Shown here: one piece after another, positions 11,803 to 33,640 of the stretch
How the letters are laid out: the number at the start of each line of letters is the position of its first letter
Numbering within the stretch: position 1 is the first letter of the stretch
Assembly (NCBI GenBank): GCA_003151825.1
Contig: PLYO01000032.1
Coordinates: forward strand, 23,555 to 87,554
Source: Ignavibacteriota bacterium
Lineage (GTDB): Bacteria; Bacteroidota; Ignavibacteria; Palsa-1295
Length of the DNA: 64,000 bases
Direction of reading: 5' to 3'
The notes under the pieces: model-generated
What the model was told of the DNA's origin: nothing
What the model saw: only the letters and a program-made list of their open reading frames with translations
Database searches by the model: none
Made by a program: the position numbers and the translations under genes

Positions 11803-11840
11803 ACCTCTCCCCAGCCCTCTCCTTAGTAAGGAGAGGGAGT
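11803..11840. repeat. Palindromic repeat (CTCTCC..GGAGAG family)
   Basis: cctctccccagccctctccttagtaaggagagggagt; same family as 16710-16750, 26862-26902 and 33486-33640. Confidence 0.75.
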
Positions 11841-15725: not shown

Positions 15726-15728
15726 TTC

Positions 15729-17216
15729 GTGAGCTTTAATAATATCTTCGTTGCAAATCGTGGCGAAATCGCCCGGCGTGTAATTCGTTCCGCAAAGGAA
15801 TCCGGCTACCAAACGAGCGTTGCGTATTCTCCTCATGATGCCTCTGCGCTCTTTGTCCGCGAGGCGGATTTGGCATTTGCTTTTGCCGGAAATACGCCGA
15901 AGGAATCCTATCTCGATATCGAGCAAATTCTGAATGCAGCAAGGAAGGCCGGAGCGAGTGCTGTTCATCCCGGCTATGGGTTTTTAAGTGAGAATGCGTC
16001 GTTCAGCGCGGCGGTAACAGAAGCGGGAATGAAATTTATCGGTCCCGGGCCGGAGGCCATCGAATTGCTCGGCGATAAAACGAAAGCACGCGCGCTGGCG
16101 CGAAAGCTTGGCATTCCAACGTCGGACGGAACGACACAGGAACTGAAATCGGATGTCGAAGCAATAGAATCCGCGCGGGCTATCGGCTATCCCGTGCTGC
16201 TCAAGGCAGCGGCGGGCGGCGGTGGAAGAGGAATGCGCCTAGTCGAACGCGAGGAGGAGCTATTGCAGAATCTCGAACGCGCGCGCGATGAGGCTCGGAG
16301 CGCCTTCGGCGACGATAGGATTTATCTCGAAAAATATATCGTAAAGCCGCGTCATATCGAGTTCCAGATGCTGGCGGATCGACATGGGAACGCTATTCAT
16401 CTCGGTGAGCGCGAGTGCTCCATTCAGCGCAGGCATCAAAAGCTGATCGAGGAATCGACTTCGGTGATTCTCACGCCGGAATTGCGACGCGAAATGGGCG
16501 AGGCCGCGATTGCGCTTATTACGAGCGCAAAATATGAAGGCGCGGCGACGGTGGAATTCTTAGTCAGTCAGGACTTAAAATATTATTTTCTCGAAGTGAA
16601 CACGCGGCTACAAGTCGAGCATCCCGTGACGGAATTTGTGACGGGCCTCGATCTGGTCCGCGAGCAATTCCGCATCGCGGAAGGCGAAAAACTTACATTT
16701 TCTCCTTTTCTTACCCCCCCGCCTTTCCAAGGCGGGGGACGGGGGGTGGTTGCCCCGCATGGACACTCCATCGAAGTACGCATTCAATCCGAGGATGTAT
16801 GGAACGATTTCTTTCCGAGCTTGGGTAAAATCGAGTACGTTCGTCACCCCGGCGGGGCGTTTGTGCGCAACGATAGTGCGATGTTCGCGGGACTTGTGGT
16901 GTCGGGCTTTTATGATTCCCTGCTCTCGAAATTAATCGTGTGGGATAGAAACCGCGAGGAAGCAATCCGCCGCATGACGCGGGCACTCGAAGAAATGCGC
17001 GTGGCCGGCGTTGCCACAACCATCCCGTTCGGACTGTTCGCCATGCGGAACGCGCGATTCCAAAGCGGCGAATTATCCACGGCCTTCGTGGAAGAAGAAT
17101 TCACTCCCGAAGCCCGCGAGCGGGAACTTGCCCGTTACACCGCACATGCCGAACCTTATTTTACCGCAGTTCAGAGAGTGCAGGGTGAAAGGAAGGCTCG
17201 CGCGGAATTTGTGTAG
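15729..17216 (+). CDS. accC: Acetyl-CoA carboxylase biotin carboxylase subunit, with in-frame repeat-derived insert
   Basis: ANRGEIARRVIRSAKESGY..., AAAGGGGRGMRLV, LEVNTRLQVEHPVTEFVTGLDLVREQ; GTG start. TPPPFQGGGRGVV between GEKLTFSPF and GHSIEVRIQSED. Confidence 0.93.
   Translation: MSFNNIFVANRGEIARRVIRSAKESGYQTSVAYSPHDASALFVREADLAFAFAGNTPKESYLDIEQILNAARKAGASAVHPGYGFLSENASFSAAVTEAGMKFIGPGPEAIELLGDKTKARALARKLGIPTSDGTTQELKSDVEAIESARAIGYPVLLKAAAGGGGRGMRLVEREEELLQNLERARDEARSAFGDDRIYLEKYIVKPRHIEFQMLADRHGNAIHLGERECSIQRRHQKLIEESTSVILTPELRREMGEAAIALITSAKYEGAATVEFLVSQDLKYYFLEVNTRLQVEHPVTEFVTGLDLVREQFRIAEGEKLTFSPFLTPPPFQGGGRGVVAPHGHSIEVRIQSEDVWNDFFPSLGKIEYVRHPGGAFVRNDSAMFAGLVVSGFYDSLLSKLIVWDRNREEAIRRMTRALEEMRVAGVATTIPFGLFAMRNARFQSGELSTAFVEEEFTPEARERELARYTAHAEPYFTAVQRVQGERKARAEFV
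16710..16750. repeat. Palindromic repeat inside accC
   Basis: cttaccccccccgccttt-type element: ccccccgcctttccaaggcgggggacggggggtgg; same family as 33486-33530. Confidence 0.85.
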
Positions 17217-26657: not shown

Positions 26658-27305
26658 TTAGACTGACGTTCGTCCTTCTATCGCTCTGGCAAGCGTGGCT
26701 TCATCGGCGAATTCGAGATCGCTGCCAATCGGGATTCCGCGCGCAATGCGCGTGACCCGATCGACGAGTGGCAATAGGAGCTTCGCAAGATAAAGCGTCG
26801 TGGCTTCGCCTTCGACGTTGGGGTCCATGGCCAAGATGATTTCACGTACTTCGACCTGCTCTACCTCTCCCCGGCCCTCTCCTTGGAAAGGAGAGGGGGT
26901 TGGCTCACGCAAGCGCGAGAGTAACTCATGAACTTTAAGTTGATCCGGGCCGACGCCTTCCAGCGGCGAGAGTGAACCACCCAAAACATGATACAATCCT
27001 TTGAATTCGTTCGTCCGTTCGATCACGAGTACATCGCTTGGCTCTTCCACTACGCAGATGATGGATCGGTCGCGCCGCGCATCGCGGCAGATTGGACAGG
27101 GATCCACTTCGGTGATGTTGGCGCAGACGCTGCACATGCGCACTCGTTGTTGCAGCGTGCCAATGGCCTCGGCGAGCGCGAGAACATCTTCACGTGGTTG
27201 TTTCAGCAGAAAAAGCGCGAGGCGCTGCGCCGTCTTGCGGCCAATGGTCGGTAGCCGCGAAAAGCGTTCGATGACCGTTTCGAGAGCGGGGGATGTGTAG
27301 AGCAT
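26658..27305 (-). CDS. recR: Recombination protein RecR, with in-frame repeat-derived insert
   Basis: Start [34 protein letters not shown]; zinc finger [16 protein letters not shown]; Toprim [15 protein letters not shown]..., [20 protein letters not shown]; extra [18 protein letters not shown] between LLSRLRE and [10 protein letters not shown]. Confidence 0.95.
26862..26902. repeat. Palindromic repeat inside recR
   Basis: acctctccccggccctctccttggaaaggagagggggttgg; nearly the same as the intergenic element at 11803-11840. Confidence 0.88.
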
Positions 27306-33485: not shown

Positions 33486-33640
33486 TGAAAAAACCCCCGC
33501 CTTTTCAAGGAGGGGGTTGGGGGGTGGTCAAATCCGAACCGAAGAATCACCCCCTGCCCCCTCCTTGAAAAGGAGGGGGAGTAATTCAGTGAACTCCCCC
33601 TCACCCAGCTTTGGGAGAGGGGCTGGGGGTGAGGCCCCTT
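33486..33640. repeat. Cluster of three related palindromic repeats
   Basis: aacccccgccttttcaaggagggggttggggggtgg; tcaccccctgccccctccttgaaaaggagggggagt; aactccccctcacccagctttgggagaggggctgggggtgagg. Confidence 0.85.

Follow-up and report, generated by a model that had tools for sequence, protein, structure and literature searches.

An in-frame hairpin repeat in recR belongs to a REP-like family that DUF559 nucleases may spread

The recR gene of this Ignavibacteriota genome carries an in-frame hairpin repeat of a REP-like family. The insert is probably a non-autonomous, solitary member of a REP/REPIN-like element family, the full unit of which would consist of a DUF559 gene between two inverted copies (hairpin-tail, gene, tail-hairpin), with the DUF559 protein spreading the ends. 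DUF559 may represent an unrecognized enzyme for the spreading of hairpin repeats. The window, i.e., the whole stretch of 64,000 nucleotides that was analyzed, contains the following features:

26658..27305, minus strand: recR, 215 amino acids, with matches to the Pfam families Toprim_4, RecR_HhH, and RecR_C
26863..26899, minus strand: REP-like element of sub-family A in recR; on the sense strand, hairpin CCCTCTCC-TTTCCAA-GGAGAGGG, spacer CC, and tail GGGGAGAGGT
26875..26897, strand not given: palindromic core (hairpin) of the recR element
26863..26872, minus strand: conserved one-sided tail of the recR element with a sharp end, GGGGAGAGGT on the minus strand
15726-17213, plus strand: accC, biotin carboxylase gene
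16717..16737, plus strand: core of an element of the GCC variant, which lies in frame in accC
11816..11836, minus strand: core of an intergenic sub-family A element
33495..33578, strand not given: two sub-family B elements in inverted orientation, tails pointing at one another and centres 63 bp apart

The insert in recR and its repeat family

The palindromic repeat that a sequence-only reading had placed in frame inside recR is indeed present there and is part of a dispersed family. On the plus strand, the insert is composed of the tail ACCTCTCCCC (26863-26872), the spacer GG, the stem CCCTCTCC (26875-26882), the sequence TTGGAAA, and the stem GGAGAGGG (26890-26897). That the segment is an insertion was borne out by the comparison with homologues, as it is absent from 29 RecR proteins of related genomes from the genus, the family, and the class. 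The named relatives among them are uncultivated Ignavibacteria, Bacteroidota, and Kapaibacterium genomes. The identity of recR to the same-genus genomes was 82-86%, and the nearest genome reached only about 86% in RecR. The insert is located in a length-variable loop with a helix on one side and a Toprim strand on the other. This loop is about 13 amino acids shorter in the same-genus genomes, and the RecR of one relative, G004, has a different, unrelated, and somewhat longer loop at this position. Despite the in-frame insert, the Toprim residues and the zinc-finger cysteines of the product are intact. A structural model of RecR with limited confidence (mean pLDDT 64.5), used solely for this point, predicted the insert to be a disordered loop. 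The effect of the insert on RecR is presumably neutral.

The element has a length of about 35-41 bp and consists of a hairpin and a one-sided tail, either GGGGAGAGGT or GGGGGTGGT. The 23-nt palindrome was found at 99 places in the 3.59 Mb genome when up to two mismatches were allowed, compared to none for the reversed control, and at 164 places compared to 15 when up to three mismatches were allowed. These numbers are far above chance. The same-genus genomes contain 0-7 copies. A catalogue of 113 copies was generated from the window and 60 further stretches around listed copies; the genome total is at least 164. In the aligned copies, hairpin arms of 8-9 bp enclose the sequence TTNNNAA and are followed by a short spacer and the conserved tail. 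The end of the tail is sharp, with the information content dropping from 1.9 to 0.3 bits past the terminal GGT (100 aligned copies), and the opposite end shows a weak A(A/C)YC motif. Sub-family A has the tail GGGGAGAGGT, and sub-family B and the GCC variant share the tail GGGGGTGGT. The earlier reading had assigned the repeats in recR and accC to the same family. The accC copy is real and absent from all relatives; however, the two copies represent two related sub-families and not one identical repeat, i.e., sub-family A (CCTCTCC..) in recR and the GCC variant (CCCCGCC..) in accC.

Copies occur singly, as hairpins of 34-38 bp, or as inverted pairs, with single copies being the majority. Eight pairs have their tails pointing outwards, mostly with 10-16 nt separating the hairpin cores, and 13 pairs have their tails pointing inwards, with 57-78 bp from one core start to the other. 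In the window, a third, diverged palindrome (CTCCCCCTCACCCAGCTTTGGGAGAGGGGCTGGGGGTGAGG) immediately follows the sub-family B pair, at 33592-33640. In six copies (L110:1275, L081:1211, L013:1502, L053:1240, L072:2125, and L101:1857) the spacer is replaced by a second hairpin (e.g. CGCATCGTCGGCGATGCG), as though the elements were built from modules or one repeat had landed inside another.

DUF559 genes between inverted copies

DUF559 was found beside or between copies in 3 of 16 loci of relatives, which led us to examine this family. No enclosed transposase was found between copy pairs 0.2-3.6 kb apart in the relatives. The present genome contains five matches to PF04480, four stand-alone genes (91-106 bits, above the Pfam cut-off) and one weak match, a domain in a helicase-like protein that is not flanked by copies. 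All four stand-alone genes (L208-L211) have inverted copies of the element on both sides, with the tails towards the gene; about 15-180 bp separate these copies from the region matched by Pfam. Because the genome contains about one copy per 22 kb, the two-sided flanking of four genes is not due to chance. Each flank pair is made of one sub-variant, CCTCCTCTGCAAGAGGAGG, CCCCTCCTWAAGAAGGAGGGG, CCCCGCCTTTTTAAGGCGGGG, and CCTCTCCTTACCAAGGAGAGG, respectively, the last of which is the recR sub-family. At the junction between a metallophosphoesterase gene and rnhA, the arrangement element-DUF559-element is present in this genome (G000) and in G004, and seven other relatives have both genes with neither DUF559 nor the element between them. 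In both cases (L209 in G000, L200 in G004) the DUF559 ORF continues through the downstream element into RNase HI, yielding a predicted fusion ORF. Two relatives, G001 and G002, contain 5-7 copies, and no DUF559 gene was detected in them.

The association was also quantified across the class. An inverted-repeat score of at least 15 was obtained for 22 of 56 loci with stand-alone DUF559 genes, and 12 of them scored at least 18. In the controls, none of 108 recR loci reached 15 (maximum 11), and swapped flank pairings scored at least 18 in 0.7% of cases. The repeats at the DUF559 loci consist of C-rich/G-rich palindromes that often carry a similar tail. The other 34 of the 56 loci stayed below 15 and thus lack a flanking repeat by this test, so that some DUF559 proteins have other roles, VsrA of Caulobacter (see below) being an example. 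Among plasmid-borne DUF559 genes, 9 of 12 scored at least 20; the genes with palindromic flanks include those of Sinorhizobium, Azospirillum, two Deinococcus, Pseudanabaena, Qipengyuania, Novosphingobium, and Sphingomonas. In 294 genomes of the class, DUF559 was present in 69 of 74 element-carrying genomes versus 117 of 220 element-free genomes (odds ratio 12, p = 3e-11), and the co-occurrence was retained when each genus was represented by a single genome (median p = 7e-7). G158, which has more copies than any other genome in this survey (138), has seven DUF559 matches, and a flanking repeat was found at two of the three loci that were fetched. The chances seem about even that Vsr/EDxHD-fold DUF559 nucleases mobilize a widespread REP-like class in Bacteroidota-related, proteobacterial, cyanobacterial, and Deinococcus genomes. 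In the class, a large number of DUF559 matches are domains within frames of 800-1400 codons (L215, L217, L220, L227, L228, L230-L233, L236, and L240), and a few of these large frames also have flanking palindromes.

An alignment of six DUF559 sequences revealed, among others, the invariant residues E25, D54, E65, D67, H71, and D80. An AlphaFold2 model of the protein (pLDDT 84.9, pTM 0.80) matched 3hrl, an endonuclease-like protein of Neisseria, and 3r3p, the catalytic domain of the homing endonuclease I-Bth0305I, both with a Foldseek probability of 1.00; Vsr (1vsr, 1cw0) gave weaker structural matches. The sequence profile agrees (3hrl, E = 2e-24; 3r3p, E = 2.5e-5). As judged from the model, the protein has the fold of Vsr/EDxHD-type nucleases. 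EDxHD nucleases are drivers of intron mobility (PMC3943268). In Caulobacter cells that have no methyltransferase, a DNA damage response depends on the Vsr-like DUF559 protein VsrA (PMC12907096), which fits DNA cutting in vivo.

A Y1/RAYT transposase was the first candidate for the mobilizing enzyme and was rejected. According to this explanation, the element would be an ordinary REP/REPIN that is moved by the HUH transposases (RAYT/Y1_Tnp) of the genome, and DUF559 would be incidental. Six Y1_Tnp (PF01797) genes are indeed present, the element is REP-like in its size, hairpin, one-sided tail, and inverted dimers, and Y1_Tnp and the element are weakly correlated (odds ratio 4, p = 0.0009). However, none of the six genes is flanked by the element. 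Five of them (L016, L017, L018, L019, and L021) come with inverted repeats that are unlike the element, two of which are GTAG REPs; several REP-like systems thus coexist in this genome. The sixth (L020) has a weak inverted repeat only. In addition, the element lacks a GTAG or CGTC tag, and G158 has no Y1_Tnp match. The Y1 association was largely lost within DUF559 strata (p = 1.0 and 0.03), whereas the association with DUF559 persisted among Y1-positive genomes (p = 8e-9). Mobilization by HUH transposases is thus improbable.

It is possible, albeit unlikely, that DUF559 is a homing-type nuclease that landed in pre-existing palindromic elements, which spread by another route. The resemblance to I-Bth0305I would fit, and tails-in dimers without DUF559 exist that could be empty sites. 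Yet both flanks of a unit share a sub-variant that differs between units, no pre-existing dimer is visible at the rnhA locus of the relatives without gene and element, and the co-occurrence points to a dependence of copy number on DUF559. That the repeats are assembly or contamination artefacts is hardly conceivable, even though the metagenome-assembled genome comprises 51 contigs and has an estimated contamination of 6.6%, because copies were found on most contigs examined, recR is closely similar to that of the same-genus genomes, and the same kind of DUF559 unit is present in complete plasmid records of other phyla.

We therefore favor spreading of the ends by DUF559. By analogy to RAYTs and REPs, the nuclease would most likely recognize the hairpin or the tail ends; it would probably cut or nick the DNA there and in this way spread the ends to new sites, as RAYTs presumably do for classical REPs. 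As no joining activity is known for this nuclease fold, the spread may rely on host repair of the cuts. The head-head and tail-tail dimers are in line with intermediates, circular or excised, like those suggested for REPs (PMC3733652).

Relation to known repeat systems

The element shares with REPs, REPINs, and BIMEs and their RAYT (TnpA-REP) enzymes a hairpin of 20-40 bp, a conserved one-sided tag, a high copy number, head-head and tail-tail dimers, and a complete unit of one small gene between inverted repeats. It differs in its tag (GGGGAGAGGT or GGGGGTGGT), in the linked enzyme, which is a Vsr-like DUF559 protein and not an HUH protein, and in the intragenic location of about half of the catalogued copies. 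As in the GTAG and CGTC superfamilies of REPs, a palindrome of 20-40 bp occurs in high copy number, singly and as inverted dimers, but neither tetranucleotide was found at the palindrome end in the aligned ends of 100 copies. A REP-RAYT pair (REPtron) is recognized by copies flanking an HUH gene, an arrangement that was found at none of the six Y1_Tnp genes. REPINs are mobile units of two inverted REPs; inverted dimers are present here, but most copies are single. MITEs have lengths of 70-300 bp, terminal inverted repeats, and target-site duplications; the single copies here are hairpins of 34-38 bp.

In-frame repeats in genes have been described before. Di Nocera et al. (PMC3733652) described REPs that lie in frame within genes for housekeeping functions and DNA repair, e.g. 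in Opitutus terrae, and Rickettsia palindromic elements (RPEs) are palindromes of about 150 bp that lie in frame in protein genes (PMC10969869). The intragenic REPs of the former belong to the GTAG or CGTC families, unlike the element described here, and RPEs are considerably longer than its 35-41 bp. CGTC REPs were stated to lack a dedicated transposase, and no mention of DUF559 was seen in the sections consulted of PMC3733652; likewise, those of PMC10969869 report no nuclease link for RPEs. TIRYT/TIRtron units also contain a small gene between inverted repeats, and the GGGGWSAS motif of some of their repeats is fitted by the element tail GGGGAGAG, but their gene encodes a tyrosine (HUH) transposase and not a DUF559 protein (PMC3733652). 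The DUF559 fold is like that of EDxHD homing endonucleases and Vsr. I-Bth0305I is a mobile-intron nuclease, whereas the DUF559 genes here are free-standing, have about 120 codons, and lie between palindromic repeats, with no intron or fused DNA-binding region. In the open-access literature, we found neither a published link between DUF559 and repeats nor a report of a DUF559-type enzyme for REP dispersal. The intragenic insertion alone is a fresh instance of a known phenomenon (PMC3733652, PMC10969869), and the link to DUF559 is the new part.

A testable enzyme for a different, widespread family would make the spread of REP-like repeats outside the RAYT families accessible to experiments. If the proposed role is true, it would provide a function for DUF559, a common but poorly understood domain, and would account for the C-rich/G-rich palindromes dispersed in many genomes as well as the peptides translated from them.

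Copies inside genes and their reading frames

A copy was counted as in-gene when a coding signal was present on both sides in one open frame, using a codon-usage model trained on the long ORFs of the window and the loci. Among the 113 catalogued copies, 53 were in-gene, representing about 45 separate insertions in 42 ORFs, so that about half of the catalogue lies in frame within real genes. Nearly all host ORFs were scanned; most of those scanned match a Pfam family, and the insert is often located inside the domain. The hosts include a class I tRNA synthetase, FtsZ, FtsK, phosphoglycerate kinase (Pgk), ArgJ, transketolase, MnmE, NadA, an SRP54-type GTPase, RsgA, a CoaBC-type flavoprotein, Ppx/GppA, diaminopimelate epimerase, leucyl/phenylalanyl-tRNA transferase, MazG, and others. 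The proposal that the family lies in frame inside unrelated essential genes is thus supported. A transposable element can therefore reach about 45 in-gene insertions, many of them in housekeeping genes, with the frame kept, and the in-gene copies constitute a natural map of insertion-tolerant protein loops.

The sequence-only reading had offered selection for an insertion site or for a frame with a harmless hydrophilic peptide as explanations. No shared insertion site was seen among the in-gene copies. According to the latter, insertion or retention would be selected for one orientation and frame, and recR and accC do both use sense frame 2 (the PFQG frame). However, when all six frames were counted, with one count for each of 45 in-gene insertions, no single frame was favored and both orientations were used: 11 were in sense 0, 7 in sense 1, 11 in sense 2, 10 in antisense 0, 2 in antisense 1, and 1 in antisense 2, and the orientation of 3 was unassigned. 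The three sense frames did not depart from uniformity (p = 0.58). With several frames usable, there is nothing unusual in recR and accC having one in common. The antisense 2 frame of the main variants contains a stop codon, TAA in copies with an ACC loop and TGA in copies with a TTC loop. The two frames that code for Arg-Arg are weakly under-represented (9 of 41, p = 0.02), which is compatible with mild purifying selection after insertion and is the sole hint of selection at the peptide level. Selection for one frame or peptide is very improbable.

A fixed element length modulo 3 was also considered as a signature of frame selection and was rejected, as in-gene and intergenic copies fall into equal length classes. 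It is thus the total insertion, and no particular length of the element, that provides the multiple of three. The in-frame copies are most simply explained by survivorship. Insertion would be untargeted, in all usable frames and between genes, and the in-gene copies would be the survivors; survival inside genes is explained by stop-free frames, short Pro/Gly-rich hydrophilic peptides, tolerant loops, and a net length divisible by three.

RsgA (L111:360-1550) seems to contain two segments derived from the element, PLLLKEEAESRS and PLLFKEGAGGG. In two species of the genus (G000, L095:1868; G004, L198:1025), the CoaBC gene has an element at almost identical positions; either the insertion is old and common to both, or the site is a preferred one. 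Lastly, the ORF of a xerC-like recombinase (L211:2016-3074) contains in-frame low-complexity runs (STQHSALSTQHSALSTQHSALL), another type of repeat that is tolerated in coding sequence.
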